Shown here piece after piece: positions 8,253 to 58,760 of a stretch of 64,000 nt of DNA. The notes beneath the pieces were generated by a model. It saw nothing but the letters and a program-made list of their open reading frames with translations, was not told the origin of the DNA and made no database searches. The stretch comes from an uncultured Marmoricola sp. GTDB taxonomy: Bacteria; Actinomycetota; Actinomycetes; Propionibacteriales; Nocardioidaceae. Location: NCBI GenBank assembly GCA_937868075.1, contig CALMLL010000033.1, forward strand, positions 1-64,000, in the 5' to 3' direction. Each line of letters begins with the position of its first letter. Within the stretch, counting starts at the first letter, position 1. Made by a program: the position numbers and the translations under genes.

Positions 8253-8281
8253 GGAAGGTGCAGATGGGTGTCCCCGGTGAC
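8253..8281 (-). promoter_or_regulatory. GTCACAG-CACCTTCC motif, copy 1
   Basis: Minus strand GTCACCG-N14-CACCTTCC (one mismatch to the consensus). It lies just past the stop of the 66-residue protein and upstream of the ArdC-like gene, suggesting that gene can be transcribed separately from the operon above it. Confidence 0.6.
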
Positions 8282-8481
8282 TATCGGACTTGAGGATCGC
8301 TCTTTCCCTCGAGGTACTCCGCCTGCAGGATCCATCGCTCGGCGGAGAGCAGACAGTGGTCGCGGTGCTCGCCGGGAGGCAGGCAGTCGGCCTCTTCCTG
8401 GTCGATCTGGGCTGAGCGGCGGGCACCGTCGGCGCCCTCGCCCACGTAGGGCTCGCGCAGTTGCACCGGTGGGGTGCTCAT
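8281..8481 (-). CDS. Hypothetical protein, 66 aa
   Basis: MSTPPVQLREPYVGEGADGA... with LPPGEHRDHCLLSAERWILQ; one Cys-His pair but no clear motif. Its ATG overlaps the stop of the preceding gene (ATGA), indicating translational coupling. Third gene of the operon under promoter E. Function unknown. Confidence 0.6.
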   Translation of the reverse strand: MSTPPVQLREPYVGEGADGARRSAQIDQEEADCLPPGEHRDHCLLSAERWILQAEYLEGKSDPQVR

Positions 8482-8717
8482 GGGGTTGTCCGTCTTGTAG
8501 AGGGCGAACGCTGCTGGGTGCGGCGGGCGGCGAGGATCTCGTCCCGGCGCATCATCCAGACCGTCGGAAGGATGACCCCGGCGCCGAGGGCTTTACGGGC
8601 GCGGCCGTTGAGATCGACGACTGCCAGGACGACGTCGTCGGGGTAGTCGGCCGCAGCCGCGGTGGTGGTGAGGTGCTCCACGAGCGTGGTGACGGCGCTG
8701 GCTTCGCCGATGTTCAT
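8478..8717 (-). CDS. Hypothetical protein, 79 aa
   Basis: MNIGEASAVTTLVEHLTTTA then YPDDVVLAVVDLNGRARKAL and a basic tail. Coupled by ATGA overlaps to both neighbours in the promoter E operon. No recognisable family. Confidence 0.6.
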   Translation of the reverse strand: MNIGEASAVTTLVEHLTTTAAAADYPDDVVLAVVDLNGRARKALGAGVILPTVWMMRRDEILAARRTQQRSPSTRRTTP

Positions 8718-9580
8718 CGCGGCTGGTCCTCTCCGTTGTCCTCGAGGAGGTAGTCAGCGAGGTGGCCGGTGGCGCACTCGTCGCAGATGAGCCCGACGTG
8801 CTGGGCGCGACGGGTGCCGGCCCGGGCCCCGAGGTAGGGGTGGGCGGTGGCGGGGGGCTCGTGGTCAACGTGCTCGCACTGGCACATGACCAAGGTGCAG
8901 GAGGCCGTGTGGACCCCGAAGCAGCTGGTCTCGTCGGCGACCGGGCAGCGGCACTCGGGGCAGCGGGCGGTCACGGTGGTCGGAGCGGTGACGATGCCGC
9001 AGTCGGCGCATTCCTCGCCCAACCCACCGGTGCGGGTGCGGGCGTGGTCGCAGCCGTCCTCGCGCCATCTGGCGGTGAGCTCGACCTCGGCGACGCGGTT
9101 GCGGCCGGTGGAGTCGGTGAAGGTGATCAGGAAGGCTCCCTCGCCGGTGAGCGCGGCTTGGGGGTCGAACGCGGGGTGAGGGGCGGTGCTGGCGGTGATC
9201 CCGTCGACGTCGTCGGCGTCGTCGAGCAGGAGCCGGATGTCCTCGACGACATCGTGCAGGGACATCGCGGTAACGGGGTATGGGGGTGTGGCGGGCGCCG
9301 CGGCCACCTCCGGCCGGGGCGGAGTGGTGGTGCCGGGTCGGACCTGAAGCTGCTGCTGTTCGTCGAGAACGGCCTCGAGGCTGCGGCACTCGCAGGTCAG
9401 CGGGCCCTGGTCGTAGCCGGCCCACTCGATGACGTCGGCTGCGGTGACGAGGGTGAGGCGGTAGCCGCCGATGGTGACGCCGGTGTATTCGGCCGTCATG
9501 CCCGCGCAGGCCTTGCACACGAATCGGTCGTAGGCCTCGTAGATCTTGTCGGGGGCCAGGACGGGGGCGGGGTTGTTCAT
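8714..9580 (-). CDS. Cys-rich multi-zinc-knuckle protein, 288 aa
   Basis: Contains repeated cysteine pairs: CKAC near residue 19, CEC about 85, CADC and CPEC with following cysteines around 205-230, CQCEH about 245 and CDEC near the C-terminus. The middle is an acidic, mixed alpha/beta segment (LHDVVEDIRLLLDDADDVDG). Probably several structural zinc sites, as in nucleic-acid or protein adaptors. First gene of the operon under promoter E; ATG preceded by GGGAGATCCGACC. No named family recognised. Confidence 0.65.
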   Translation of the reverse strand: MNNPAPVLAPDKIYEAYDRFVCKACAGMTAEYTGVTIGGYRLTLVTAADVIEWAGYDQGPLTCECRSLEAVLDEQQQLQVRPGTTTPPRPEVAAAPATPPYPVTAMSLHDVVEDIRLLLDDADDVDGITASTAPHPAFDPQAALTGEGAFLITFTDSTGRNRVAEVELTARWREDGCDHARTRTGGLGEECADCGIVTAPTTVTARCPECRCPVADETSCFGVHTASCTLVMCQCEHVDHEPPATAHPYLGARAGTRRAQHVGLICDECATGHLADYLLEDNGEDQPR

Positions 9581-9640
9581 GGTCGGATCTCCCGTGGTCG
9601 GGACCAGCTGGTCAGGCCGGTGGTTTGGTTGGTGTCTTCG

Positions 9641-9663
9641 ACGCTACCGGCCACCACCGACAG
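9641..9663 (-). promoter_or_regulatory. PafBC/RecA-NDp-type promoter, copy E
   Basis: Minus strand CTGTCGGTG-N8-TAGCGT with the shared GTCGAAGACACCAACC leader start, 61 bp before the ATG at 9580. Confidence 0.75.
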
Positions 9664-9685
9664 AGGCCGGGCAGTGTGGGTCCGA

Positions 9686-10501
9686 TCAGGCAGCGGGTGC
9701 CTGGACGAGTGCGTCGAGGTCGGGGTTGCACCAGCTCTCGTGGGGGTGGGCGAGGAGTCGTTGCATGACCTGGTCGAGGAGCTGGTCGTGGGTGGCGAGC
9801 AGCTCGGTGGCGCGCCGGCGGGCTGTGGCCAGGAGCGCGTCGCTGGTGAGCTCGCCGCGGTGGTCCTTCGGGGTGCGGCCGGTGGAGATGATCGCGGCTG
9901 CGGCCACGAGGGCTTGGACCAGGTCGGCTTGGGCTCCGTCGTCGTGGTGGCCGTGGGCCAGATCGGCCTGGTTGCCTGCCATGCAGATCACCAGGTGCAC
10001 CCAGTTGCGTTCCGTGGGGTCGGTGAGCTCCTCGAGGGAGAAGGAGCACTGTCCGCCGCGATCGGCAACGGGCTGGATGTCCAGGGCGAGGATCTTCCCG
10101 CCCAGGGCCCACCCGGCGACGGCGTGGGCTGCCTCGTGTCGAGCGCGGCGGCGGAGCACCTCCGGCGGGGTCAGGTGGCTGGTCATCCTGGCCAGGGGGG
10201 CGGGCAGGGTGACGGTGGTCCGTGTCCGGTACCGGCAGCGGTGAATGTCGGAGATGAGCATGCTCAGGACCCAGAGCGTGCCGAAGAAGAGGAACAGTGC
10301 GCGACCTCCGCCAGGCTCGGCGGCGACGGCGGTGAACCATTTCCACATGTGGCTGGCGAAGGTCACCCAGAGGATCAGCAGCAGCAGGCTGGGCCAGGTG
10401 CTGCGCAAACCCTCGAGCAAGAACCGGCCCGTGGTGCGCGCGCGCTCGAGGGCGGGCAGCGTGATGTCTGCCGGTGCGGTAGCGGGGGTGGGTGCGGTCA
10501 T
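9686..10501 (-). CDS. Membrane protein with HEAAH (M41 peptidase-like) domain
   Basis: 271 residues. Two membrane segments (PSLLLLILWVTFASHMWKWF and RALFLFFGTLWVLSMLIS) precede a soluble part beginning RARHEAAHAVAGWALGGKIL, which matches the zinc-binding HExxH entry of FtsH/M41-type peptidases. A second distant ligand is not assignable by eye. The ATG lies 6 bp after CACCTTCC of the motif at 10508-10536 and lacks a clear ribosome binding site, so the mRNA may be leaderless. A longer upstream frame was not used because it overlaps that motif. Confidence 0.65.
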   Translation of the reverse strand: MTAPTPATAPADITLPALERARTTGRFLLEGLRSTWPSLLLLILWVTFASHMWKWFTAVAAEPGGGRALFLFFGTLWVLSMLISDIHRCRYRTRTTVTLPAPLARMTSHLTPPEVLRRRARHEAAHAVAGWALGGKILALDIQPVADRGGQCSFSLEELTDPTERNWVHLVICMAGNQADLAHGHHDDGAQADLVQALVAAAAIISTGRTPKDHRGELTSDALLATARRRATELLATHDQLLDQVMQRLLAHPHESWCNPDLDALVQAPAA

Positions 10502-10507
10502 GCCTGT

Positions 10508-10536
10508 GGAAGGTGCCGGACGCCCGGCCCTGTGAC
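10508..10536 (-). promoter_or_regulatory. GTCACAG-CACCTTCC motif, copy 2
   Basis: Minus strand GTCACAG-N14-CACCTTCC ending 6 bp before the ATG at 10501. Confidence 0.7.
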
Positions 10537-10539
10537 GGT

Positions 10540-11283
10540 CTAGACGGGACGATTGAACGGCGCCGGGAGCTGCTGCAGCAGGCTCCCGCACCACTGCGCG
10601 AGGGAGTCGACGTCATGGATGCCTAGGTGGGCGCACAGCAGGAGGACGGCGGCGAGCGAGAGCAGTGGGGCGATCAGGGCGCGCTCGAGGAGCCCGTTGA
10701 CCCCGAACAGGCCGACGCTGAGCCGGCGACGGTGACCGAGGAGCCAGAGGATCGGGACAGGGACGCCTTCGTCGGTGAGCCAGTCGCCGGCGATGTGGAT
10801 CAGCACACCGGTGGCCAGGACCAGGGGCAGGAGCCGGATCTGGTGGGCGCCGGCAGCGACCAGGATCCAGGCGATGATCGCGGAGACGAGCAAGTTGGCT
10901 GCCGCGCCGATGCGGCCGACGCCGGCCAGGGCGAGCCCACGCAGCGCCAGGCCGATGGTCACCGCCAGGACCACTCCGGTGGTGACCGGGTGGAGGGAGG
11001 CCAGGAGCGCGACGCCGGCGAATGCGATCGGTGCCAGGACGGCGTCGTGGGTTCCTTGACGATGGCCCTGAGCGAGCGCGCCGACGAGGGAACCCAGCGG
11101 GCGGGTGATCGGGCCCCACATGCGGGCGACGGTGGACCCGGTGGTGTCCAGGTCGGGCAGCAGGCTGGCTCCGCCCAGGGCGAGCACCCAGGCGGTCTGG
11201 GCGGCCGCACCGGTGACGGGTGCGATCGGCAGGGTGGCGACACCGGTCAGCAGGCCGCAGCTGACGTGGTTGTAGCCCATCAT
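10540..11283 (-). CDS. YdjM-like membrane-bound metal-dependent hydrolase
   Basis: 247 residues starting MMGYNHVSCGLLTGVATLPI; its ATGATG overlaps the TGA of the exonuclease gene. The N-terminal NH, LPDLDTTGSTVAR, HRQGTHD and AGDWLTDEGVPVPILW are the conserved metal-ligand-like residues of the YdjM/LexA-regulated family (PF04307). Five or so hydrophobic segments span the membrane. In enteric bacteria ydjM is SOS-induced; here the operon carries a RecA-independent damage promoter (copy F). Exact substrate unknown. Confidence 0.75.
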   Translation of the reverse strand: MMGYNHVSCGLLTGVATLPIAPVTGAAAQTAWVLALGGASLLPDLDTTGSTVARMWGPITRPLGSLVGALAQGHRQGTHDAVLAPIAFAGVALLASLHPVTTGVVLAVTIGLALRGLALAGVGRIGAAANLLVSAIIAWILVAAGAHQIRLLPLVLATGVLIHIAGDWLTDEGVPVPILWLLGHRRRLSVGLFGVNGLLERALIAPLLSLAAVLLLCAHLGIHDVDSLAQWCGSLLQQLPAPFNRPV

Positions 11284-11867
11284 GTGGGCCTCCCGGCGAT
11301 GACGTGGAGGACTTCGAGGGTGGCCAGGCAGTCGCCCAGTGCGTGGTGTGGTCCGCCGAGGGCGACCCAGCCGCGGCCTTCGACCAGAGAGCGGGCACGC
11401 ATCAGGCACACCCAGTTCTGGGGGTCGGCCAGGTGCGCGGGGTCCACGCCGACGTCCCGGAGGCCGGTGGCCAGGACCTGCCGGTCGTAGGGCGCGTTGT
11501 AGGCCAGCAGCTGACGACCTCGGGTGGTCGCCAGCAGCTGGGCTGCGATCGCGTCGAGGGTGGGCGAATCCTGGAGGACCTGGTCGCAGATGCCGTGCAC
11601 CGCGGTGGCGGCCGGACTGACCGTAGTGCTGGGTCGCACGAGGGTGCTGAGCAGGACCTGGCCGGTCAGGTCGATGACGCTGACCTGGACGACCTGGCCG
11701 AACAGGTCGGTGGTCTCGGTGTCCAGGATGACGGCGTCTTTGAGGCGGAGACGGGAGCGTGCCCAGCTGCGCATCTTGACGGCGCGGATCTTGCGGCGGA
11801 GTCGTCGGGTGATCTTCACACCCAGGGAAGGTTCCTGAGCGGGTCGACGGTGACGCGAAATGCTCAT
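11280..11867 (-). CDS. DnaQ-type 3'-5' exonuclease
   Basis: 195 residues with the DEDDh exonuclease signature: ILDTETTDL (Exo I, residues ~47-55), LLAYNAPYDRQVL (Exo II) and HHALGDC (Exo III). The basic N-terminus (about 40 residues) precedes the catalytic domain. The ATG follows GAGAAGGAGAACGGAACCGCC. Resembles the proofreading epsilon subunit or small stand-alone exonucleases. Damage promoter copy F lies 82 bp upstream; the next gene is translationally coupled. Confidence 0.85.
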   Translation of the reverse strand: MSISRHRRPAQEPSLGVKITRRLRRKIRAVKMRSWARSRLRLKDAVILDTETTDLFGQVVQVSVIDLTGQVLLSTLVRPSTTVSPAATAVHGICDQVLQDSPTLDAIAAQLLATTRGRQLLAYNAPYDRQVLATGLRDVGVDPAHLADPQNWVCLMRARSLVEGRGWVALGGPHHALGDCLATLEVLHVIAGRPT

Positions 11868-11948
11868 GGCGGTTCCGTTCTCCTTCTCTCGTCGACGTCG
11901 GGGCGACGACGGCCGGCTGGTCGGGCCGGCGGCGGGTTGGTGCTGCTG

Positions 11949-11971: not shown

Positions 11972-12050
11972 CCCCTGCGGTTGGCGTCATCAGGCACCTG
12001 GCTGGCGCACCTTCCCGGGTCGAAGGAGCACCACCGCAGCGTCGTCCTAG

Positions 12051-20156: not shown

Positions 20157-20369
20157 TCAGGCGGCGCGCGGGAGGCTGGTTGGCTCTGCGGCGGTGCGCT
20201 GGGCAGCCCGGGTGTCCGCGGCGGTGGCCAGCGCGCGCAGGTGGGTGGCGTGGGCGGGGTGTCCTTGCAGGTCCAGCACGATCGCCGAGGAGCGGCAGGC
20301 GATGGCGAACCTGAGCAGGTGCCAGGCGGTATGCCCGCGCAGGGGTGGTGGTGTACCCAGGGTGGTCAT
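20157..20369 (-). CDS. Small hypothetical protein, 70 aa
   Basis: MTTLGTPPPLRGHTAWHLLR, a helical Ala-rich protein with two basic patches. Its ATG overlaps the WhiB stop (ATGA). No family recognised. Confidence 0.6.
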   Translation of the reverse strand: MTTLGTPPPLRGHTAWHLLRFAIACRSSAIVLDLQGHPAHATHLRALATAADTRAAQRTAAEPTSLPRAA

Positions 20370-20701
20370 GAGGCGCGCACCAGCAGGATCGGGTCGTCGT
20401 CGAAGACACGGGCGCGCATGGCGATGACCAGGTCGTCGAGCTGGTCGGTGATCGAGGGCGGGGCGGGCAGCTCGCTCTGGGATCGGATCTCGGCGCGGTC
20501 GTCCTCGGTGGTTCCTCCCCAGACGCCGTAGACGTCGTGCGCCAGGGCCCAGTCGCGGCACTCGTCGACGAAGGGGCAGGCCGAGCACAGTGCCAGGGCC
20601 GGGCTCGGGTCGGCGCCGATGGTGCCGGAGAAGGCGGAGGCCGCGGCCGGCGTGGGGTTCTGGCAGGCCTGGGTTCCGTCGAAGTGCGGGTAGTCGTACA
20701 T
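20366..20701 (-). CDS. WhiB-family transcriptional regulator
   Basis: 111 residues. Four cysteines, C13 and then CSACPFVDEC (C39, C42, C48), form the WhiB [4Fe-4S] site, followed by the GVWGGTTEDDR turn. WhiB proteins are actinobacteria-specific regulators that bind sigma factor region 4. It lies in the helicase operon, 16 bp after the helicase stop and coupled to the next small gene. A second WhiB is at 27046. Confidence 0.9.
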   Translation of the reverse strand: MYDYPHFDGTQACQNPTPAAASAFSGTIGADPSPALALCSACPFVDECRDWALAHDVYGVWGGTTEDDRAEIRSQSELPAPPSITDQLDDLVIAMRARVFDDDPILLVRAS

Positions 20702-24063: not shown

Positions 24064-24285
24064 TCAGCTCCCAGGGTTTCGGGTGGAGTGGTCCAGGGCC
24101 GCGACGAAGGCGGCTCGCTGGGTGGGTAGGGACTGGGTGGCTCCGTGCACGCCTCCTCCGCACGGGCAGTCCCACAGCCAGCAGCGTTCTGCGGCCCGGT
24201 AAACGTGCATGTGGTGGGCGGTGCGGGCCCGGCGGGGTGACCGCGATGATGGAGTCCGGTGGGTGGCGGGAGTCTGGATGCTCAT
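24064..24285 (-). CDS. Small Cys/His-containing protein, 73 aa
   Basis: MSIQTPATHRTPSSRSPRRA, basic N-terminus, then CWLWDCPCGGGVHGA, a possible metal knuckle. ATGA overlap with the preceding gene. The motif resembles short phage/plasmid proteins, but no named family is claimed. Confidence 0.6.
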   Translation of the reverse strand: MSIQTPATHRTPSSRSPRRARTAHHMHVYRAAERCWLWDCPCGGGVHGATQSLPTQRAAFVAALDHSTRNPGS

Positions 24286-25130
24286 GCCGCCACCCACCGG
24301 TTGCTGGTGATCCGGCCGATCAGCTCGGTGCGGCCGGCGCGGGTCAGGGCTATCTCGATGCTGTTGCGGCAGGAGCCGACCCGGTGCTCCAGCTCTGCCC
24401 AGGTGGCGCCCAGGGCGGCGAGCTCGGCGACGTCGTCGACGTAGATGCGCTGCCAGGACTTGGCGGGTCGGCGGGCGTGGACCGGGGCGGGCAGGTTGGG
24501 GTCGTCGATCGTGTCGTCGTCCCAGGCCAGTGGTGGCAGCCAGCCGGCCTTCTCGGCGCGCAGCCTGGTGCGGGTGATCGCGGTCTGGGCGTGTGGACCG
24601 TCTGCCTCCGGTGAGCTGGTCCAGTGGGCGTCGTAGAAGTCGCGGACCTCGCGGGCCAGCTTCGCGGTGACGGTCTCGCGAGTGAGGCAGCGGTGCAGGG
24701 CTGAGGTGCCCGTTGCGCGCTGGATCTGGCTGAGGGACCAGCCCAGGACCATCAGCGCCTGAAGTCGCCGCTGGGTGCCGGCAGATGGGGTCAGCGCGGA
24801 GTCGGCCAGAGCATCCAGGGTGGGGCGAACCGCAAGGATCGCCGCGGCGACACGGGGGGTCACGCCGCGGCGGTAACTGCTAGGACGGGTGACCTGTTCG
24901 ACGGTCATCCGACCGACGTTGGCGAGCTGGGCGATCTGCCGGGAGCCAACTCCCTGCGTCGACAGCCAAGCGATGTGAGCGGCGACCTGCTCGAGCGGGA
25001 CGAGTTCTTCGAGCTGACCGTATGCACGCAACCGGGCCCTGCGGCGGCCGTACTCGCGGGAGGCCTTGGTGCATGCCGCGCAACGGCAGCCGTGGTTGAC
25101 GTAGGTGTCGAGGACGCCGTGGGGTGCCAT
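24282..25130 (-). CDS. GCRC-motif helix-turn-helix protein, 282 aa
   Basis: MAPHGVLDTYVNHGCRCAAC then TKASREYGRRRARLRAYG, a short Cys-basic module common in actinophage and plasmid DNA-binding proteins. Two HTH-like units follow (VGSRQIAQLANVGRMTVEQV; ALMVLGWSLSQIQRATGTSA) and a C-terminal segment GATWAELEHRVGSCRNSIEI, also HTH-like. Probably a sequence-specific DNA-binding regulator. First gene of the eight-gene operon; the ATG follows GGAAGGCGGCACCGAG. The GTCACAG/CACCTTCC motif is 38 bp upstream. Confidence 0.7.
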   Translation of the reverse strand: MAPHGVLDTYVNHGCRCAACTKASREYGRRRARLRAYGQLEELVPLEQVAAHIAWLSTQGVGSRQIAQLANVGRMTVEQVTRPSSYRRGVTPRVAAAILAVRPTLDALADSALTPSAGTQRRLQALMVLGWSLSQIQRATGTSALHRCLTRETVTAKLAREVRDFYDAHWTSSPEADGPHAQTAITRTRLRAEKAGWLPPLAWDDDTIDDPNLPAPVHARRPAKSWQRIYVDDVAELAALGATWAELEHRVGSCRNSIEIALTRAGRTELIGRITSNRWVAA

Positions 25131-25167: not shown

Positions 25168-25197
25168 GGAAGGTGCGCGGTGAAGGAGCGCTGTGAC
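25168..25197 (-). promoter_or_regulatory. GTCACAG-CACCTTCC motif, copy 3
   Basis: Minus strand GTCACAG-N15-CACCTTCC, ending 38 bp before the ATG at 25130; candidate promoter for the whole 18640-25130 operon. Confidence 0.75.
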
Positions 25198-25387: not shown

Positions 25388-26182
25388 TCACGACTGGCTC
25401 CGGTGCTCGACGAACTCCGGGGCGGGGTCGCGCAGCTGCTGCTGCAGCCACGGCTGGCAGGAGGGCCAGAGCAGTGCCAGGGCGGGCATGTTCAGTCCGC
25501 TGACGGCCTCCCACACCAGGTTGGCGTCCTCCTGGCCGTCGAAGGAGAGGACGAAGACGCCGCTGCGGGCGGGCAGATCGGCCGGCAGCGCGGCCGCGGC
25601 GTCGCAGCGGATCACCACCAGCGGCGCGTCGTGCCAGTGCTCGCGTGCCTGGTCGGGGGCGACCCAGGTCAGGCCTGGGACCGCGGGAGGGGTGGAGTGG
25701 GTCAGGGCCACGCCGATGCTGGTGCCCGAGCGCAGCTGAGGGCGGGTCCAGAACCAGGGCGCGTCCGCGTAGCCGGGCAGGCGGTGGGTGGCGGCGGTGA
25801 TCAGGGCAGCCATGAGCCGCGCGGTCGGGCTGCTCGACCAGGTCGGGCTGTCCTTGCAGGCAGCCTGAGCGCTGTGCGCGGCCTTGATCACCTCGACCGG
25901 GTCGATGGTCTCGACCCGGGTGTGGGTGTAGGGCCCGGCCGGGGCTCGGTCGACCAGCCGGGTGCGGCCGTGGTCGGAGAGCCACCGCACTGAGGCGGTG
26001 TTCTCGGCGCGCAGCATCCGGCCGGCCTCGGTGCTCGAGGCGACGATGACGTGGCGCTCGAGCGCCGACTGGGCGAAGGCCGCCGCCGTCGGGGATGCCA
26101 GCAGTCGCCAGTCTGCGGCGGCGGTGATGAGCAGGTCGATGTGGTCGTCGGTCAGGACGGGGGTCGGGCTGGTCGTTGCCAT
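25388..26182 (-). CDS. Hypothetical protein, 264 aa
   Basis: MATTSPTPVLTDDHIDLLIT..., a mixed alpha/beta protein (DGQEDANLVWEAVSGLNMPA, PSCQPWLQQQLRDPAPEFVE). No membrane span or catalytic motif was recognised. The ATG follows CCCGAGGGAGCGATCCTG-like spacing and the leader (CAACCAACC...) resembles those of the damage promoters, but no TTGTCGGTG box is present. Divergent from 26336; their shared upstream region carries two copies of the GTCGCAGCAAGC motif. Confidence 0.6.
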   Translation of the reverse strand: MATTSPTPVLTDDHIDLLITAAADWRLLASPTAAAFAQSALERHVIVASSTEAGRMLRAENTASVRWLSDHGRTRLVDRAPAGPYTHTRVETIDPVEVIKAAHSAQAACKDSPTWSSSPTARLMAALITAATHRLPGYADAPWFWTRPQLRSGTSIGVALTHSTPPAVPGLTWVAPDQAREHWHDAPLVVIRCDAAAALPADLPARSGVFVLSFDGQEDANLVWEAVSGLNMPALALLWPSCQPWLQQQLRDPAPEFVEHRSQS

Positions 26183-29922: not shown

Positions 29923-29952
29923 GGAAGGTGCGCGCGCCCAGTGGGCTGTGAC
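29923..29952 (-). promoter_or_regulatory. GTCACAG-CACCTTCC motif, copy 4
   Basis: Minus strand GTCACAG-N15-CACCTTCC ahead of traB. Confidence 0.75.
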
Positions 29953-32662: not shown

Positions 32663-32691
32663 GGAAAGGTCATTTCGGGGCGGTCTGTGAC
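32663..32691 (-). promoter_or_regulatory. GTCACAG-CACCTTCC motif, copy 5 (variant)
   Basis: Minus strand GTCACAG-N14-ACCTTTCC, 47 bp before the GTG of the DUF2637 gene. Confidence 0.6.
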
Positions 32692-41207: not shown

Positions 41208-42281
41208 CTACGGGGCGGTGGTCGGCGTGGGGCTGCCGGCCGGGGGTGGGGTGGCGCTACCCGAAGGCCGGGTAGACGCCGGGCCCGGCGCCGAGCTGGC
41301 GGCGGGAGCCTGGGACTGCTGCTGCACCGGGGCGGGGTCGATCGCGGAGATCTCCCAGCGGCCGGCGCGGGCAGTCAGGGTCAGCGCATAGGCGACGTTG
41401 GCGGTCTGCTGGTCGGTGACCACCGCCGTGCCCAGCGCCAGGACTCGGGTCTTGGTGCCGTCCTGCGGGACGGCCGCCGGTGGCTGGTCGCTGCCGGCGG
41501 CGCGGATCTCCGAGAGCCGGACCGAGGTGTACGGTGCCGGGGTGAGCGGGGTCAGGTTGACTCCTGGGGTCAGGTAGCGAGAGACGTCACCCGAGCCGGC
41601 GATGTAGGCCGTCAGGAACTGGCCCACGGCCTGCCCGAGCGGGGTGGTCAGGTCGACCTGGGCGCGGTAGCCGTTGGAGGAACCGACTGTCACCGGCGGC
41701 GGGGACACAGGGGCCGGCAGGGTCAGCGCGGTCAGCCCGCCCTGGGCGTACCGGACGGGGACCTGGAAGTAGCGGCGGGCGGTGGTCTTGTTCGCGTCGG
41801 TGATGGTGGCGGCCACGGTCACCGACCAGGTGCCATCGACGAAGGTGATCCCCGAGACGGCCGAGTCGTCGACCTTGAAGGCCGTCTGGGACAGCCCCGA
41901 GACCTGGGCGTCCTTGACTAGAGCCAGCATCGGGTCGGGCTTGTCCTGGGTAGTGGTCAGCCAGGTAACGACCACCTGCTGGGCGAACTGGCCGACGATC
42001 GCGCGCTCGTTGGACTGGTCCACCGGGGCAACAACGGGGGCGGCGGAGGGCTGGCTGGACTGCAGGAAAGCCAGGCCGCCGGCCACTGCACCCACCGGGC
42101 CGAGCGCCAGGCAGGTCAACAGGCCGACCGTGGCGGCCTTGGCGCCGAGCGCTGAGGTGGTCTGGTGGCGGCCGTCGGCCACGGGCGGCAGGTCCTCGAA
42201 CTCGACATCGTCGCTCTGGTCGACATCGAGCTCAGGGTCGGCCTTCCTCGACCCGCGGCGCAGCGACAGGGTGGGGCTCAT
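41208..42281 (-). CDS. TcpC/VirB8-like conjugation protein
   Basis: 357 residues. Cytoplasmic acidic N-terminus, a single membrane span (AATVGLLTCLALGPVGAVAG), then two NTF2-like-sized halves (YFQVPVRYAQGGLTALTLPA; TRVLALGTAVVTDQQTANVA ... WEISAI) and a Pro-rich tail. This is the arrangement of TcpC-type VirB8 analogues of Gram-positive T4SSs. ATGA-coupled to the 42278 gene. Confidence 0.75.
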   Translation of the reverse strand: MSPTLSLRRGSRKADPELDVDQSDDVEFEDLPPVADGRHQTTSALGAKAATVGLLTCLALGPVGAVAGGLAFLQSSQPSAAPVVAPVDQSNERAIVGQFAQQVVVTWLTTTQDKPDPMLALVKDAQVSGLSQTAFKVDDSAVSGITFVDGTWSVTVAATITDANKTTARRYFQVPVRYAQGGLTALTLPAPVSPPPVTVGSSNGYRAQVDLTTPLGQAVGQFLTAYIAGSGDVSRYLTPGVNLTPLTPAPYTSVRLSEIRAAGSDQPPAAVPQDGTKTRVLALGTAVVTDQQTANVAYALTLTARAGRWEISAIDPAPVQQQSQAPAASSAPGPASTRPSGSATPPPAGSPTPTTAP

Positions 42282-42654: not shown

Positions 42655-42684
42655 GGAAGGTGCCGAGCCCAGGCCGGCTGTGAC
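42655..42684 (-). promoter_or_regulatory. GTCACAG-CACCTTCC motif, copy 6 (T4SS operon)
   Basis: Minus strand GTCACAG-N15-CACCTTCC, 38 bp before the ATG at 42616. The four 38-47 bp leaders (copies 3-6) argue for a transcription start just after the CACCTTCC box. Confidence 0.75.
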
Positions 42685-42789
42685 GAGCACGGAGGAGATA
42701 TCGCCCAACTTTTTTCCCGACACCCAACGGGCGCGTTATCGCAGGTCACAGGGCCATCAGCAGGTGGCGGGCAAGCCCCCAGTTGGCGG

Positions 42790-42918
42790 CTTGCCCGAAG
42801 AAAGTTCTCGGGCTGACCTGCTCGGGCAAGAGAACGGGCAAGGGTGCCGGACTTGAGTGGAGACCGTAGGAGGCGACCCACAACTAGTAGACGGGTCGCA
42901 GCAAGCACTCCTACGGTC
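42790..42918 (+). promoter_or_regulatory. Complex regulatory region of the sigma-like gene
   Basis: Contains CTTGCCCG (42790-42797) inverted to CGGGCAAGAG (42823-42832) and CGGGCAAGGG (42835-42844). Then a nested palindrome: GACCGTAGGAG (42862-42872) with CTCCTACGGTC (42908-42918), enclosing GCGACCC (42873-42879) and GGGTCGC (42893-42899). The right side overlaps the 17-mer GACGGGTCGCAGCAAGC (42890-42906) also found at 26244-26260. The outer right arm ends 6 bp before the ATG. Likely autoregulatory operators or an mRNA hairpin. Confidence 0.6.
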
Positions 42919-42924
42919 CAAAGC

Positions 42925-43842
42925 ATGAACCGCACGGAGGAGCCAGCAGCCGTGAAGCAGATCGCCCGGATGTTTCGCCAGCACGACGTCGCACCCGCCG
43001 ACGTCGTCTCACCCCTCTACCGCCAGCTAACCCAGGAATGGGCCGAGCTGCACTCAACCCCCAGCACGCCGGCGACGGTACGGAGGTGGGGCCGTAGCGA
43101 GAAGGCACTGACCGGATTCACCCTCCCCGGTGAGATCGTCGACGCGATCGACGCCGCCGGTCACGACCGCACCAACGAGCTCCTCCTGGCGCTCATCCGG
43201 CTCTTCCAGCGCGGCCACCAGCTAGCCGGCCGTGTCGTCCTCCAGGCGCTGCTGCCCAAGCTCGCCAAGACGGCCACCCACGCCGGCGGGATGTGCACCT
43301 CGAGCAGCGACACCTGGGCCGAGGACCGCAGGCACATCACCCTCGCTGAGTTCTGGGACGTGATGGCCGACTACCCCGTGGATCGGCGCACCAGCTCCGT
43401 CGCCTCCAACCTGGCCCTGGACACACTGCACCGCGTCACCGGCGCCCGGAAGCCTCCCGCAGACCTGCCCGTCGACCCGCACGACTTCCGCGACGACGAG
43501 ACCCGTGACGGCGCCCGGAGCACCTGGCTCGCCGGGCTCAGCACCACCGACCCCGACCCGGTCGAGGAGATCACCCCCGACTCGGATCTGCTCGAGGTCA
43601 TCGCCTGGGGCATGCGCAACGACACCATCAGCCAGGACGAGGCACAGCTGCTCGTGGCCTCCTACCTGCCAGAGCGCACCAGCGGCTTCGGGTTCGCGGA
43701 CGTGGCCGACCAGCTCGGCCTCAGCCATGCCGCCGTGCGCCAGCGCTGCTCCCGCGCCTCCCGCAAGCTCACCGAGGCCGTCCGGGCCGAGCTCCACTCC
43801 CCCGCCACACCCGCCGTGGCCGTCCAGGTCGCCTGCGCCTGA
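42925..43842 (+). CDS. Sigma-factor region-4-like regulator
   Basis: 305 residues beginning MNRTEEPAAVKQIARMFRQH. The C-terminal 70 residues (DEAQLLVASYLPERTSGFGF, then VADQLGLSHAAVRQRCSRAS) closely follow sigma-70 region 4, with helix-turn-helix AVRQRCSRASRKL. The N-terminal part is a helical domain of unknown type without a clear region 2, so it is either a divergent sigma factor or a region-4-based activator. It is alone on the plus strand between the T4SS and Tad operons, both carrying the GTCACAG/CACCTTCC motif, and is the best candidate to act on that motif (inference). Confidence 0.75.
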   Translation: MNRTEEPAAVKQIARMFRQHDVAPADVVSPLYRQLTQEWAELHSTPSTPATVRRWGRSEKALTGFTLPGEIVDAIDAAGHDRTNELLLALIRLFQRGHQLAGRVVLQALLPKLAKTATHAGGMCTSSSDTWAEDRRHITLAEFWDVMADYPVDRRTSSVASNLALDTLHRVTGARKPPADLPVDPHDFRDDETRDGARSTWLAGLSTTDPDPVEEITPDSDLLEVIAWGMRNDTISQDEAQLLVASYLPERTSGFGFADVADQLGLSHAAVRQRCSRASRKLTEAVRAELHSPATPAVAVQVACA

Positions 43843-49781: not shown

Positions 49782-50197
49782 CCGGTCAGCCGTTCCACTG
49801 GCATGGACGCCGACTGGGTGATCTTCGGGGAGACGAACGGGATCAAGCTGACCGTGTAGGTAGTCACGGTGATCGTCGCGGTGGTCGCGGTGCGGTTGCC
49901 TGAGACGGAGGTGTTCTTCAGTCCTGCCGAGGTGGAAGAGACGAAGTCGGAGGCCGCGGCGACGCCGGCGGCATTGGTTCCGTCGGCAGCCGCAGCGATC
50001 CTGGCGCCCTCTTGGGCAGCGGCCAGTGTGATCGTGCGCCCCTGGTAGAGCACCGCGGCCTGGACCCCGAGGAACATCAAGGTGAACAGGGCGGGCATCA
50101 GCACCACCATCTGGATGGTCGCCGAGCCACGCTCCCGCCGCGCCGTCAACCAGTTGGCCAGACGGCACGGCAGGAACGGCGCTCGGAAGTCGCTCAC
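49778..50197 (-). CDS. TadE-family pseudopilin, 139 aa
   Basis: GTG start overlapping the Flp pilin stop (GTGA). RRERGSATIQMVVLMPALFT then LMFLGVQAAVLYQGRTITLA and AQEGARIAAA, a TadE signature (hydrophobic helix, then AA.EGAR). Third of three adjacent TadE/G-like genes. Confidence 0.8.
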   Translation of the reverse strand: MSDFRAPFLPCRLANWLTARRERGSATIQMVVLMPALFTLMFLGVQAAVLYQGRTITLAAAQEGARIAAAADGTNAAGVAAASDFVSSTSAGLKNTSVSGNRTATTATITVTTYTVSLIPFVSPKITQSASMPVERLTG

Positions 50198-50394
50198 GTG
50201 ATCTTGGCGGCTTCGCTGGTGACGTAGGCGCGGATGGCGGTGACGACGATCGCGACGATGGCAATCACCGCGACGGCCCAAAGGACCTTCTCGATGGTCT
50301 CCGAACCGCGCTCGGACTTGGTCGTCAGGCTGGCGCGGGCCCGGTCGGCCAGGTCCACGCCGAGGGTGTGCAGTGTTGCTGCGAGGTAGTGCAT
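50194..50394 (-). CDS. Flp/Fap-type pilin, 66 aa
   Basis: MHYLAATLHTLGVDLADRAR, then ERGSETIEKVLWAVAVIAIV followed by AIVVTAIRAYVTSEAAKIT: a short prepilin with a Glu-containing start of a single hydrophobic helix, the form of actinobacterial Flp pilins. The ATG follows AAGAGGGGACTCCCGCT. First gene of the Flp operon and likely the major pilin. Confidence 0.8.
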   Translation of the reverse strand: MHYLAATLHTLGVDLADRARASLTTKSERGSETIEKVLWAVAVIAIVAIVVTAIRAYVTSEAAKIT

Positions 50395-50435: not shown

Positions 50436-50464
50436 GGAAGGTGCGACACGGTGGTGTCTGTGAC
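50436..50464 (-). promoter_or_regulatory. GTCACAG-CACCTTCC motif, copy 7 (Flp operon)
   Basis: Minus strand GTCACAG-N14-CACCTTCC, 42 bp before the pilin ATG. Confidence 0.75.
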
Positions 50465-52327: not shown

Positions 52328-53896
52328 CTACACCGCCTCGCGACCGTTGTCGGCCAGGTAGGCGTTGATGTCGAAGCCGTGCTGCTCCAGCTCGCGCAGC
52401 TCGTCGGGCAGGGTGCCGGGCACCGCAGGGCCACCGGCGAGGTTGGGCCGGAAGACGTGGGTGACGGCGTATCCCTTGGCTGCTTCGCCAGGGGCGACGT
52501 GCACGATCTCGGAGACCCAGCGGGATCGGCGCCACTTGCCGTCGCCGAGGGGGACGGTCTCGAGGTGGACCTGGACGACGAGGTCTACGGTCTCGGCGAG
52601 TTTGGAGGTGGCCAGTTCCTTGGTGACGTGGGGGCCGGCCTCCATGGCGCACGTGACGAGCTTGCGGATGGCTCCCTCACCGTTGCCGGCGTGGGTGGTG
52701 GAGATCGAGCCGGCGCCGGACTCCATCGCCTTGATCATCGCCCACACCTCGCGGCCGCGGACCTCACCGACGATCTGACGGGAGAGGTTGAACCTGAAGG
52801 AGTCGTAGAGGGCTTCGTCGAGGGTGAACTCGCCGGCCTGCTTGCCGTCGGGGCCGACCTCGCCGGATCCGGGGCGAGCCTCCCAGGCGTGGACGATGGG
52901 GTGGACGTCTGTGAGCTCGTGCAGGTGCAGCTCGAACTCGGTCTCGAACGTGCCGATCGCTTCCCACGGGTTGATCTCCGCGCACAGGGCTCGGACCATC
53001 GTGGTCTTGCCGGCGCCCTGTGGCCCGGCCACCACGACGGACTTGCGTGCCTTGATCGCAGCGCGCAGGAAGGTGGCCTGGGTGAGGGTGATCATGTCGC
53101 GGTCGACGAGCTCGTCCAGGGTGACCCGGCGCAGCCGGTGGCGGCGGATCACCACGGAGGGGTGGGCAGTCACCCAGGCGGCGGCCGCCAGACGCGGTCC
53201 GCCATCCAGACGCATGTGCAGCCGCGGGTTGGCCGAAGAGAAACTGCGGGCGTTGACCTCGCTGCGAGAGGCGACGAAGGACAGGAAGTCCAGCAGCTCC
53301 TGGTCGGAGTCGGCTACCGGGTCGGCCTTGACCAGGGTGCCGTCGACCTTCTCCACCCACACGTTCTGGGCGCCGGTGATGATGATGTTCTCGACGGTGT
53401 CGTCGTCGACGAGGGGCTGCAGCCTGCCCAGCCCGAACAGCGCGTTGTAGACGGCAACCGCCATCGCGTCCTGCTCATCCATCGACCACGCGGCTTCGCC
53501 GTCGTGGAGCCGGTCGGCGGCCGTGGTCTGCAGGAGCTCTTGGATGATCGTGCGACCAAGCTCCCGCTCGGTCTCGGGGTCCATGCCCCGCTCCTCCCCC
53601 AGCGCCGCGGTCAGCTGGTCCGAGGCCTGAGCGCGCAGCATCGCGACCTGGTGCCAGTCGATTCCGCCCGGGGCGACGCCGGTAGGCCGTGCAGCCGGCG
53701 GAGGTAGAGCGGTCGGCGCAGGAGCGGGAGCGGGCCGTTCAGGGCTTCGGGCCACGCCCCCGATCGGACCCGCCAGGGAGCGGGCCGAAGGCGCGACGGG
53801 TGAGGGCGCGAGGGAGATCGTCGGGACCTGGTGATGGCCGTTGGGCGAGGTGGCTCCGAAGATTGGCAGCGAGGTGGGGTCGAGACGGTCAGTCAC
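52328..53896 (-). CDS. tadA: TadA/CpaF pilus assembly ATPase
   Basis: 522 residues; GTG start after CCTTGGAGGATTCC. A disordered N-terminus (~80 residues) leads into the CpaF N-domain (NALFGLGRLQPLVDDDTVEN about 151-170). Walker A AGPQGAGKTTMVRAL at 291-298, GTFETEFELHLHELT, a Walker B region with SRQIVGEVRGREVWAMIKAM, and TTHAGNGEGAIRKL. This type II/IV secretion ATPase powers Flp pilus extension. A separate 56-residue copy of its residues 159-206 region lies immediately upstream. Confidence 0.9.
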   Translation of the reverse strand: MTDRLDPTSLPIFGATSPNGHHQVPTISLAPSPVAPSARSLAGPIGGVARSPERPAPAPAPTALPPPAARPTGVAPGGIDWHQVAMLRAQASDQLTAALGEERGMDPETERELGRTIIQELLQTTAADRLHDGEAAWSMDEQDAMAVAVYNALFGLGRLQPLVDDDTVENIIITGAQNVWVEKVDGTLVKADPVADSDQELLDFLSFVASRSEVNARSFSSANPRLHMRLDGGPRLAAAAWVTAHPSVVIRRHRLRRVTLDELVDRDMITLTQATFLRAAIKARKSVVVAGPQGAGKTTMVRALCAEINPWEAIGTFETEFELHLHELTDVHPIVHAWEARPGSGEVGPDGKQAGEFTLDEALYDSFRFNLSRQIVGEVRGREVWAMIKAMESGAGSISTTHAGNGEGAIRKLVTCAMEAGPHVTKELATSKLAETVDLVVQVHLETVPLGDGKWRRSRWVSEIVHVAPGEAAKGYAVTHVFRPNLAGGPAVPGTLPDELRELEQHGFDINAYLADNGREAV

Positions 53897-54059
53897 GGAA
53901 TCCTCCAAGGAAGTCGAGGAGCTCACGGTCGGAGTCGGCCACGGGGCCAACGGCGGTGAGGGTCCCGTCGCTTTTCTGCACGCAGACCTCCTGAGAGCCG
54001 GTGATGATGATGTTCTCGACGGTGTCGTCGTCGATAAGCGCTTGGATCTGACTGGTCAT
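53889..54059 (-). CDS. Mini-protein duplicating part of the TadA N-domain, 56 aa
   Basis: Reads MTSQIQALIDDDTVENIIIT then GSQEVCVQKSDGTLTAVG and PVADSDRELLDFLGGFRD. It aligns with TadA residues about 159-206 (LVDDDTVENIIITGAQNVWV; PVADSDQELLDFL). The ATG overlaps the TadZ-like stop (ATGA) and the stop overlaps the tadA GTG, so it is fully embedded in the operon and probably translated. It may be a decaying duplication or a competitor that fits the TadA hexamer interface. Confidence 0.7.
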   Translation of the reverse strand: MTSQIQALIDDDTVENIIITGSQEVCVQKSDGTLTAVGPVADSDRELLDFLGGFRD

Positions 54060-55553: not shown

Positions 55554-55606
55554 TGGCTGGTCGGGCCTTTCGGGTTTGGTTGAGGTTCTGGCTTCTGGAT
55601 CGAGAT

Positions 55607-56227
55607 TCAGTTGTCGCCGAAGAAGTCGCTCAGGGCCGCGGTGATGAGGTGTCCTCGCGAGCTGGCACCGAACTCCTCGACGAGCTGGTCCAAGGTGGCG
55701 AAGTCAGCCTCACGGAGCCGGTAGTTCAGGGGGGTCAGTGGGCCATCTGTCTTGCGTGAAGCGCGGCTGCGCCTGGAGGCGAACAGCCCTCCGCCGGCGG
55801 TCGCCACCGGGTGGATGAGGTCCTTCAGCCGGGGGTGGGCGTTCTCGATGGCCACGATGATGACCTCACCGTGGGACAGTCCGTCCGCCTTGCACTTGGC
55901 GACCAGCGGATCAAGCAGTGCGACCGGGATGTGCACGTTGGAGGGCCGGACCTTGTCCTCGGGGCCCTTCTGAGCCGTCTCAGGCGCCGCGGAGGGATCG
56001 GAGGGGCTGGTGTGCTCCGGCGAGGCCGTAGAGGTCTCAGCGGCCCGCACAGGGCGCTCTGCGGCCTTCTTGGACCGGTTGGTCGTGCCACGCGCCGACG
56101 AGGGTGACTGGGAGGTGCGACGGGGCGGCAGCAGCGGCGTCGGTGCGTCCTCGACGGGGACGTCTTCGAAGTTGGACAGGCGGCCGGGCGGGATCTCTCG
56201 GGCCGAGCCGGTTCCGGATGTGGTCAT
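55607..56227 (-). CDS. ParB-like centromere-binding protein (candidate)
   Basis: 206 residues. A disordered Pro/Ser/Thr N-terminus (~95 residues), then VRPSNVHIPVALLDPLVAKC followed by KADGLSHGEVIIVAIENAHP, and PLTPLNYRLREADFATLDQL followed by VEEFGASSRGHLITAALSDF; both resemble ribbon-helix-helix arms. ATGA-coupled to parA, which is the main reason to call it the partition adaptor. Confidence 0.7.
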   Translation of the reverse strand: MTTSGTGSAREIPPGRLSNFEDVPVEDAPTPLLPPRRTSQSPSSARGTTNRSKKAAERPVRAAETSTASPEHTSPSDPSAAPETAQKGPEDKVRPSNVHIPVALLDPLVAKCKADGLSHGEVIIVAIENAHPRLKDLIHPVATAGGGLFASRRSRASRKTDGPLTPLNYRLREADFATLDQLVEEFGASSRGHLITAALSDFFGDN

Positions 56228-57198
56228 GCCTCTGCTCCTGCCAGGTACGTAGCTCCGGTCTCGGCGGCCGAGATCCTGGCGCAGATCTCGGCGGCGAGCC
56301 GGTCGTAGTCACCCGCGAGAGAGTCGGCCGTGCCGGAGAGCGCGACCGGGAGCGGGATGACGTTGTCGACGGAGTCCTCACCCCGGCGACGGGCGCTGAG
56401 TGCCTCGAGTCGCTCCGCACGGTTGGCGTCGACGTCGGCGGCGAGCTCGTGAGCGAGCTGCCCGCGGTAGCGGCAGTCGTGCGCGGAGCTCTCTGAGTGG
56501 CGCACATAGGCCTGGAGCAGCGGCACGGTCTCCCCCACTTCCTCCAGGCGGACCTTGGTGTTGCGCATGACCCGAGTCGCCTGCGGGTTGTGCGCAGTGA
56601 CAACCACACCCAGGTAGCCCAGATCAGGGTTGATCGCACGAGCGCGCTTGACGCGAGGACCCACCCCGAGCAGCCCGTCCCAGGACCCGGGGTCGGTCTT
56701 GGTCGGGATCAACACCCATCGCGAGGCGGTCAGCGCCATATCCTGAAGGTCACCGTTGCCAGGAGGGCAGTCCAGCAGGACCAGGTCGTAGTCCTCGGCC
56801 ACGTCGGCCAGGCGCGAAGCGAACTCCGTGGCGATCGACCCGGTCGGCAGCTCATCGGACATCGACGACTTTGCCAACGAGCTGAGCATCTCCAGCGCAC
56901 GGCCACCGAAGATCATGTCCAAGTTGGGCCGCACCTCGCGCACGATCTGAAGGTCAGCGCCGGACCAGACGGCGTCGACGACGCTCTTGCCGGCGTCATC
57001 CTCGGCGGCGGAGGTCATGCCCAGGTCCATCTTCAGGTTCCCGCTGATGTCGAGGTCGATCACCAGCACCCGCATGCTCTTTGCCAGACACCCGGCGACG
57101 TTGGCCACGATGCTGGTCTTCAGCACCCCGCCCTTGCCGTTGATCACGGCCACCACACGACTCAGTGCGGCCGCGTCCGGCAGCTCAGGTTCGGACAT
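56224..57198 (-). CDS. parA: ParA partition ATPase
   Basis: 324 residues from the ATG preceded by GATGGAGGGACGG; an in-frame ATG at 57219 lies too close to the promoter motif. VVAVINGKGGVLKTSIVANV is the deviant Walker A (KGGxxKT), VLVIDLDISGNLKMDLGM the A' box and DLVLLDCPPGNGDL Walker B. It segregates the plasmid with the adjacent ParB-like protein. It heads the operon that also contains CpaB, TadZ-like, TadA, TadB and TadC, an unusual link of partition and pilus genes. Confidence 0.88.
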   Translation of the reverse strand: MSEPELPDAAALSRVVAVINGKGGVLKTSIVANVAGCLAKSMRVLVIDLDISGNLKMDLGMTSAAEDDAGKSVVDAVWSGADLQIVREVRPNLDMIFGGRALEMLSSLAKSSMSDELPTGSIATEFASRLADVAEDYDLVLLDCPPGNGDLQDMALTASRWVLIPTKTDPGSWDGLLGVGPRVKRARAINPDLGYLGVVVTAHNPQATRVMRNTKVRLEEVGETVPLLQAYVRHSESSAHDCRYRGQLAHELAADVDANRAERLEALSARRRGEDSVDNVIPLPVALSGTADSLAGDYDRLAAEICARISAAETGATYLAGAEA

Positions 57199-57225
57199 CC
57201 GTCCCTCCATCACGCTCATGCCCGT

Positions 57226-57255
57226 GGAAGGTGACCCGAGGCCGGTGCCTGTGAC
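57226..57255 (-). promoter_or_regulatory. GTCACAG-CACCTTCC motif, copy 8 (parA-Tad operon)
   Basis: Minus strand GTCACAG-N15-CACCTTCC, 27 bp before the preferred parA start. Confidence 0.75.
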
Positions 57256-57687: not shown

Positions 57688-58323
57688 ATGACTGCCGCGC
57701 GAAAGCCCTCCGACTGGCTCGAGGACATGACGTGGCACCGGCGCATGTACGACCAGTCCAAGTTCCGCTGGGTGCCAGAGGACCCGATGTCGATCGCGCT
57801 GACCTGGACTAAGGGGCGGGTGGAGTTCACCACCCCCGGTCACCTGCGACGCCTCGACATCCAGCTGCATGAGCTGCGCTACTACGCCGGCGGCATACAA
57901 GACGCCATGCTCGACCCTCTCGCTCTCGCTCGCGAGCGGTGCCCGGACTACCGCGCCGGCCTGGAGCTGGTCGGGATGACCAAGACCGACGTCGACATCC
58001 TGCGCTACAACGCACTCAGCGGCCGCGTCCGCAACCACCCCGAGGCCAGGCGAGCCCTGCGCGGCATCCCCCTGCCCAATCCATTCAGCCAGGTCTGGGA
58101 ACTGCGCCAGATGCACGGCATGTACGCCGCAGCGGACAACATCCTCGAAGACACCTTCTGCGACCTCGCCACCGAACTCGCCGAGGACCTCGGCTGGGAC
58201 AGCATCGCCCCCCTCACCGTGATCCACCGCACCGGCAACGGAGTCCGCCTGCGGGTAGAGCAACAGCGGCGCGAGCGGGGGCTCCCAGGCGACCCGCGCC
58301 GGCGCGTAGAGCAGCGCTACTAG
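57688..58323 (+). CDS. Hypothetical protein, 211 aa
   Basis: MTAARKPSDWLEDMTWHRRM; ATG chosen over an upstream in-frame start because GGAG lies just before it and the extra residues look non-coding. A helical, charged protein (LRRLDIQLHELRYYAGGIQD; MTKTDVDILRYNALSGRVRN). No motif recognised. Divergent from parA, ahead of the replication region and closed by a strong hairpin. Confidence 0.65.
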   Translation: MTAARKPSDWLEDMTWHRRMYDQSKFRWVPEDPMSIALTWTKGRVEFTTPGHLRRLDIQLHELRYYAGGIQDAMLDPLALARERCPDYRAGLELVGMTKTDVDILRYNALSGRVRNHPEARRALRGIPLPNPFSQVWELRQMHGMYAAADNILEDTFCDLATELAEDLGWDSIAPLTVIHRTGNGVRLRVEQQRRERGLPGDPRRRVEQRY

Positions 58324-58348
58324 CACTTCCCAACGCGCTCATACCGCT

Positions 58349-58377
58349 CCCCCCTGCCGCCCCTTGCCGGCAGGGGG
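58349..58377 (+). terminator. Terminator hairpin
   Basis: CCCCCCTGCCG and CGGCAGGGGGG pair around CCCCTTGC, 26 bp past the stop at 58323. Confidence 0.75.
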
Positions 58378-58437
58378 GTCACTGTTTTCCAAACCCTCAG
58401 ACCGGGAGCAAAACACCCCCCGCGGGCGTTCTCCTCC

Positions 58438-58540
58438 TCACTTCCCACCTACGTTTCCCACCTCGTTTCCCCCCTCAGTGGGAAGTGAAAAACCGTCTCT
58501 GACCTGCGCAGACACCCTCGTTTCCCACGTTTCCCACCAA
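58438..58540. other. Iteron cluster, candidate replication origin
   Basis: Three tandem 12-mers, CTTCCCACCTAC, GTTTCCCACCTC and GTTTCCCCCCTC (58441-58476), then an inverted GTGGGAAGTG (58478-58487), then GTTTCCCAC and GTTTCCCACCAA in tandem (58520-58540). Iterons just upstream of the replication operon are typical of plasmid origins controlled by Rep. The rest of 58541-58730 is pyrimidine-rich with GCGCGC palindromes and no gene. Confidence 0.6.
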
Positions 58541-58730
58541 ACTCATCCCCATGTCTATGCGTGTGGGCACGCGCGCGAGGCTCTTGCACACGCGCGCGCT
58601 CCTCCTCTCTCTCGCTCTCTCGCAGCAGGGGGGCGGCGGCGCCGGCCCGCGGTGTGTGGTGGGAGCGAGGCGCGGCGCAGCTTGGGTGTCTGCGGGGGAG
58701 CTGTGCGGGAGAGGAACTTCGTCTCGGCTT

Positions 58731-58760
58731 GTCACACAGGACGCAGTGACCGCACCTTCC
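58731..58760 (+). promoter_or_regulatory. GTCACAG-CACCTTCC motif, copy 9 (replication operon)
   Basis: Plus strand GTCACAC-N15-CACCTTCC, one mismatch, 95 bp before the RHH gene. The only plus-strand copy, facing the only plus-strand operon of the core. Confidence 0.65.

Follow-up and report, generated by a model that had tools for sequence, protein, structure and literature searches.

A bipartite motif ahead of transfer and pilus genes, probably the promoter of an element-encoded ECF-like sigma factor in actinobacteria

Which protein reads the bipartite motif that recurs ahead of secretion, pilus and other genes in a stretch of DNA from an uncultured Marmoricola sp.? The stretch, referred to here as the window, is the first 64 kb (64,000 nucleotides) of contig C33, which is 90.5 kb long and makes up 3% of the genome. 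We computed the motif, its positions and conservation, its co-divergence with homologues of one window protein, and the resemblance of that protein to sigma factors. The motif is very probably the -35/-10 promoter of a dedicated alternative sigma factor, which the element itself encodes at 42925-43842. Judged from sequence, this protein should bind core RNA polymerase, set the start sites and act as a positive regulator.

The window was searched for exact copies of GTCACAG-N{12,17}-CACCTTCC, with 100 dinucleotide-preserving shuffles of the window as the null. This pattern search found six copies, all GTCACAG-N14/15-CACCTTCC, at 10508, 25168, 29923, 42655, 50436 and 57226. The shuffle mean was 0.01, and none of the 100 shuffles attained six. 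The same six copies are the only ones in the whole genome (2.98 Mb). With the looser pattern GTCAC-N16/17-CACCTTCC, 10 matches were found in the genome, all on C33 and two of them past the window. A mismatch scan contributed the weak 32663, along with 11826 and 75796 (both AACCTTCC); 8253 (GTCACcG) and 58731 (GTCACAc) have a single mismatch each. With near-matches included, the window contains 10 sites (one weak), and C33 contains three more at 66229, 68259 and 75796. The initial annotation had listed nine copies. All nine positions hold a site, six exact, two with one mismatch and one weak, whereas 11826 had been missed. It had also described each copy as facing a gene start, mostly over a leader of 6-50 bp. 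This agrees with our measurements, since all 10 window sites are co-oriented with a reading frame and lie 6-54 nt 5' of its start (6, 6, 6, 6, 37, 38, 38, 41, 47 and 54 nt).

The motif is not equally common at unrelated positions, a possibility that the initial annotation had raised against its own proposal. No copy lies off C33. In 148 related genomes the looser pattern gave at most three matches each, near the reversed-pattern control, except in the genome itself (10) and in an Actinopolymorpha (11). The latter is the sole other genome among the 148 with a close (72%) homologue of the 42925-43842 protein.

To describe the geometry, 60 sites from related elements were pooled. GTCAC and the 8-nt box are 16 or 17 nt apart in these sites. 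AG is favoured after GTCAC, G is favoured before the box, and a ggTG-like signal follows 4-7 nt past the box. The pooled-site scan demanded both boxes, so that only the spacing and the flanks count as independent evidence. At 10508, 11826, 57226 and 58731, the start codon begins with the seventh base past the box. With the first base of these four start codons taken as +1, CCTTCC falls at -12 to -7 and GTCAC near -36. They are predicted to yield leaderless mRNA, with the start codon where transcription should begin. The -10 is of a GC-rich type, unlike known sigma consensus elements, and the initial annotation was correct that it is not TANNNT. The geometry, the putative leaderless starts and the conservation of the box also favour its proposal of a bipartite promoter over a simple operator.

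Conservation was compared at orthologous sites of F2B08 (a Nostocoides contig) and Tetrasphaera australiensis, whose regulators are 83% and 92% identical to the window protein. GTCAC is kept at 99 of 100 positions and the box at 158 of 160. The drifting parts are the spacer (57-66%), the upstream region (60%) and the distal downstream region (62%). On pXCEL01 and pCPRO01, where the regulator is 54-55% identical, about 12 and about 13 sites have the same box.

Homologues of the 42925-43842 protein were found by tblastn on 98 plasmid records, mostly from Streptomyces and Rhodococcus. On all 12 actinobacterial plasmids examined, the homologue adjoins the type IV secretion system (T4SS) operon. 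Homologue and T4SS head are divergently transcribed on pXCEL01, pCPRO01, the Cutibacterium plasmid, Kineococcus pKRAD01, Rhodococcus pBD2, pRHL2 and pLP2, two Microbacterium plasmids, Curtobacterium pC1b and Arthrobacter pAL1. The exception is Streptomyces pSSP121038, on which the homologue lies directly 5' of the T4SS head and in the same direction. Two of the 12 plasmids share the motif of the window; on the remaining ten, nine different motifs with this geometry occur at T4SS, FtsK or Tad operons.

Blind word enrichment, with tandem repeats filtered, recovered the window motif in its own sequence, F2B08 and pXCEL01. Different motifs of equal geometry were enriched above shuffles in Cutibacterium (GCACAT..CCTTCA), Kineococcus (GTCACA..CACCTACC) and pAL1 (TGTCTAA..CCCTTG). 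Others were read from the regions upstream of T4SS, FtsK or Tad operons: GTCACAG..AACCTCCTC on pBD2, TGTCAC..GATCTTCCTC on pRHL2, TGTCCGAT..ACCTATG on plasmid B of Microbacterium No. 7 and TTGTCCCGG..CACC in Curtobacterium. A matrix of eight patterns against 16 sequences is nearly diagonal, with three stray single matches off the diagonal. When the T4SS upstream region served as the seed of a scan, the motif came up only in the window's own sequence, pXCEL01 and Kineococcus. In the first blind scan, the highest-ranking words in Kineococcus, pBD2 and G120 came from coding tandem repeats and were set aside.

Three previously unexamined plasmids were used for a prospective test, the prediction being a TGTC../..CCT promoter of this geometry. 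On pLP2, a motif of the pBD2 type was found at T4SS and FtsK, with a variant at flp. On the Microbacterium paraoxydans plasmid, T4SS, FtsK and flp all have TGTCCGCGAAG..GGCCTATA; on the Streptomyces plasmid, TGTCACACGG..ACACCTCTA occurs at T4SS and at an operon with an ATP/GTP-binding protein. The patterns were written with the upstream regions already in view; they count 4, 4 and 3 matches on pLP2, M. paraoxydans and Streptomyces, and elsewhere matched only pBD2, through the pattern that it shares with pLP2. The motif changes where the protein changes, which suggests that the homologue reads the sites, and the prospective test is the strongest single argument for this.

The protein encoded at 42925-43842 was compared with known sigma factors. 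Searches with the single sequence gave sub-threshold matches to sigma region 4 alone, and a single-sequence search of PDB gave no match. A profile of 12 family members matched region 4 of the solved SigL structure with E=1.2e-4. The same profile matched CnrH weakly over both regions (E=0.022), and RpoE was likewise aligned across both. Structure searches were performed with an AlphaFold model. Sigma factors or sigma-containing complexes filled all 50 rows listed by Foldseek and all 50 listed by VIA-align. In this low-confidence model, residues 85-174 overlay sigma2 of CnrH, SigW and AlgU at 2.8-3.1 Å over 78-80 residues, and residues 217-291 overlay region 4 of SigR and SigD at about 3 Å. The balance leans towards a diverged two-domain ECF (extracytoplasmic function)-like sigma factor with an N-terminal extension rather than an activator with region 4 alone; the sigma2 part of this reading is suggested mainly by the structural match. 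The Rhodococcus homologues already carry the NCBI label "sigma-70 family RNA polymerase sigma factor". A second sigma factor was not found on C33 with Pfam Sigma70_r4_2, a model that misses the 42925 protein at threshold too, and no relative of this protein was found in viral contigs. The initial annotation had named the gene as the probable source of a dedicated sigma factor or a region-4-type activator. The resemblance to sigma2 and sigma4, the co-variation of motif and homologue and the outcome on the three plasmids all speak for that choice.

In the proposed mechanism, GTCAC(AG) near -36 to -30 would be read by sigma4, while sigma2 would recognise and melt CACCTTCC near -14 to -7. The predicted start of transcription is 6-7 nt past the box, either on a conserved ggTG(A) or on the initial base of a leaderless start codon. 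Once the sigma factor is made, the host core RNA polymerase would turn on the regulon together. This regulon would include the conjugation T4SS, the FtsK-type ATPase, the Flp-pilin-like gene and the Tad pilus operon with its ParA-like leader gene, the M78/ArdC-like gene, and several small operons. Genes for the exonuclease, the DUF2637 protein (weak site), the HTH (helix-turn-helix)-like protein and small proteins are also among the predicted targets. Across actinobacterial conjugative plasmids, sigma factor and promoters would have diverged jointly in each lineage.

Several points weigh against this mechanism. The evidence that the sites are sigma-factor promoters is computational throughout. 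The 42925 protein lies under the Pfam and NCBIfam cut-offs, and a sequence match to sigma region 2 (Pfam Sigma70_r2) was not found for it. The AlphaFold model, built from five sequences, is weak (pLDDT 59), and helical proteins easily reach middling structural scores. Melting a GC-rich -10 would be difficult. On pBD2, pRHL2, Microbacterium No. 7 and Curtobacterium, which have just 2-5 sites in 50 kb, blind detection gave a marginal result or none, so the motifs there were picked by eye. The motif could in truth be read by another conserved plasmid protein encoded beside the T4SS genes.

Other explanations were considered as well. The 42925 protein might act as a sigma-like activator, bound to the bipartite site and recruiting the host RNA polymerase together with a host sigma factor that it does not replace, as the detection of region 4 alone in single proteins and the unusual -10 would allow. 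We consider this unlikely. The overlay of residues 85-174 on sigma2 of CnrH, SigW and AlgU (2.8-3.1 Å) and the profile alignments to CnrH and RpoE over both regions point to a two-domain sigma factor, and leaders of 6 nt have no space for a separate -10 past the box. That the sites are repressor operators, or binding sites for partition or transfer proteins, rather than promoters is very unlikely. They do lie near start codons, and in Cutibacterium an inverted repeat (CCTTCA..TGAAGG) covers the start region. However, the motif is asymmetric and always co-oriented with the gene, its spacing and distance fit a -35/-10 pair, and the short leaders contain no other promoter.

A WhiB-like protein as the activator that reads the motif is more improbable still. 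Two WhiB-like genes are present in the window (20366-20701 and 27046-27360), and others are on pXCEL01, pCPRO01 and the Streptomyces plasmid. However, none was found in the stretches of about 50 kb that were searched on seven distant promoter-bearing plasmids, and the WhiB genes are not neighbours of the T4SS operon. A dedicated sigma factor encoded at 42925-43842 is our preferred reading.

The 42925 protein was also compared with described systems. Like the ECF (group IV) sigma factors, such as SigL, CnrH, SigW and SigR, it resembles sigma4 and, judging mainly by the structural match, sigma2, with sigma3 undetected, and its predicted promoters have a -35/-10 layout with 16-17 nt spacing. Unlike them, it has about 80 extra N-terminal residues and sits under curated family cut-offs, no anti-sigma gene was recognised beside it, and its predicted targets are plasmid transfer and pilus genes. 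Promoters of ECF41 have TGTCACA at -35, a spacer of 16 +/- 1 nt, and CGTC or TGTT at -10 (PMC3426412). Predicted promoters in the window and in Kineococcus, Rhodococcus and Streptomyces have nearly this -35; the window has GTCACAG, but a T precedes it in just about one third of sites. Membership in ECF41 was rejected, as the -10 is CACCTTCC rather than CGTC and the large C-terminal extension is missing. The sigma4 part ends near residue 291 of 305, about 14 residues from the C terminus, and the target genes differ.

SigN (ZpdN) of Bacillus subtilis pBS32 is plasmid-encoded and weakly homologous to ECF sigma factors; its regulon is on the same plasmid, and its promoters have a consensus of their own (PMC6751061). 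The system described here is similar in that a plasmid gene is paired with promoters on the same plasmid; all motif copies in the genome are on C33, and there are relatives among plasmids. SigN is LexA-controlled, autoactivating, and tied to cell death and a prophage-like element (PMC6751061). In contrast, the 42925 family would target a conjugation T4SS and Tad pili, and it spans actinobacteria. Actinobacterial plasmids that carry Flp/Tad and T4SS genes, such as those of C. acnes (PMC5696575), Rhodococcus pBD2 and Arthrobacter pAL1, likewise have T4SS and FtsK-type genes and the sigma homologue. Tad genes are present as well if the stretch extends to that region, and each lineage has its own promoter version. 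Regulation, sigma factors and promoters are not mentioned in the C. acnes plasmid paper (PMC5696575).

A literature search, which covered few subscription journals, found no description of the family, its promoters, the motif string or a link to conjugation. It gave nothing relevant on start-site maps or on plasmid sigma factors with conjugation in actinobacteria. Plasmid sigma factors, TGTCACA -35 elements and the NCBI sigma-70 label were already known; the regulon and the co-diverging promoters are new here. We think it fairly likely that this is an undescribed sigma family of conjugative plasmids across actinobacteria with private promoter classes. It would keep the transfer and pilus programme transcriptionally separate from the host and from co-resident plasmids, through fast co-evolution and nearly lineage-specific codes. 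The switching of transfer in actinobacterial T4SS/Tad plasmids (Rhodococcus, Arthrobacter, Cutibacterium, Streptomyces and others) seems hardly described. If the reading is true, the transfer regulon of a plasmid can be recognised directly from sequence by one gene and one promoter pattern. The diverged pairs of sigma factor and promoter would be a natural set for studying the evolution of promoter specificity and could yield independent expression systems for high-GC bacteria.

Table 1. Predicted promoters and associated genes in the window.
Feature	Position	Strand	Remarks
Putative ECF-like sigma factor gene, 305 aa	42925..43842	+	residues 85-174 sigma2-like, 217-291 sigma4-like; ~80 extra N-terminal residues
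Predicted T4SS operon promoter	42655..42684	-	exact motif; leader 38 nt; conserved in five relatives; divergent from sigma gene
T4SS operon start	42616
TcpC-like gene, T4SS operon	41208-42281		Pfam TpcC
VirB4-like gene, T4SS operon	37547-40282		Pfam AAA_10
Predicted promoter of Flp-pilin-like gene 50194-50394 and following genes	50436..50464	-	exact; leader 41 nt; conserved in F2B08, Tetrasphaera
Predicted promoter of ParA-like gene 56224-57219, Tad operon leader	57226..57255	-	exact; conserved; start codon 6 nt past box; Pfam AAA_31
TadA gene within Tad operon	52328-53950		Pfam T2SSE
Predicted promoter of FtsK/SpoIIIE-type ATPase gene 27677-29884	29923..29952	-	exact; conserved; leader 38 nt; Pfam FtsK_SpoIIIE
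Predicted promoter of 24282-25130 (HTH-like protein; weak HTH match)	25168..25197	-	exact; conserved; leader 37 nt
Predicted promoter of 9686-10501 (weak peptidase M41 resemblance)	10508..10536	-	exact; start codon 6 nt past box
Predicted promoter of 6720-8198 (M78 peptidase / ArdC-N like)	8253..8281	-	one mismatch; leader 54 nt; conserved in F2B08
Predicted promoter of exonuclease-like gene 11280-11819	11826..11854	-	GTCACcG-N14-aACCTTCC; GTG 6 nt past box; conserved in F2B08, Tetrasphaera
Predicted promoter 5' of small reading frame at 58767 or 58856-59086	58731..58760	+	one mismatch; ATG 6 nt past box; conserved in F2B08, Tetrasphaera
Weak, probably degenerate site of DUF2637 gene 31801-32616	32663..32691	-	GTCACAG-N14-ACCTTTCC; leader 46-47 nt

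Two sites in Table 1 have counterparts on other plasmids. The place equivalent to the 50436 site is also used on pXCEL01, pCPRO01, pLP2, pAL1 and both Microbacterium plasmids. On pCPRO01, an intact site (GTCACAG..CACCTTCC) stands at the matching place of the DUF2637 homologue. The initial annotation had counted replication among the functions headed by the motif; the gene behind 25168 encodes an HTH-like protein, and replication is at most a possible target.

The mismatch scan found no motif copy upstream of the sigma gene, and hence no autoactivating promoter. Instead, the sigma gene (42870-42925, +) and 25388-26182 (26261, -) share a conserved element, CGACCCAC-N5/6-GTGGACGGGTCGCAGCAAGC, of which the copy at the window sigma gene is degenerate. 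Ahead of the sigma gene, the element is followed by a stretch with a TANNNT -10, CTCCTACGGTCC-aaagc-ATG. Relatives show the same pairing: F2B08 (C3:21341 and 40245), pXCEL01 (45289 and 62302) and pCPRO01 (38306 and 97697). Control of literally all core functions by the dedicated regulator, as inferred in the initial annotation, is not supported in view of these two genes. Because the sigma gene lacks the motif and has another conserved element, a further tier of control is likely, and the shared element is a candidate control point above the sigma factor. The 240 bp 5' of the sigma gene (42685-42925) also contain four GGCAA/TTGCC words (GGGCAAG/CTTGCCC), compared with about 0.4 expected. Such words are similarly enriched before the homologues in F2B08, pXCEL01, pCPRO01, Kineococcus and pBD2, and are possible operators.

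About 20-40 bp 5' of the -35 of the T4SS promoter, an A-tract (AAAAAAGTT-like) is present in the window (42705-42725), pBD2, pRHL2, Cutibacterium, Tetrasphaera and F2B08. It could be an UP element or part of oriT. On the Cutibacterium acnes HL096PA1 plasmid, the inverted repeat CCTTCA..TGAAGG lies across the predicted start at 14418, 16786 and 28181. The repeat is absent in most other lineages and is a possible operator.

On the chromosomes of two relatives (G128 and G091), homologues of about 31% identity are encoded 2-4 kb from TadA-like genes. None of the tested motifs was found in these chromosomal stretches. This family may have started out as a Tad-pilus sigma factor or turned into one.

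Comparison of the contig ends showed no circular overlap. The right ends of C33 (90486-90545) and of F2B08 C3, two independent contigs, stop at the same place, at a GC-rich hairpin (CCTTCGG..GGCGCGCAGCGCC..CCGAAGG). This end looks like a telomere, so the element may be a linear plasmid. The plasmids pBD2, pRHL2, pAL1, pKRAD01 and pC1b are likewise linear.

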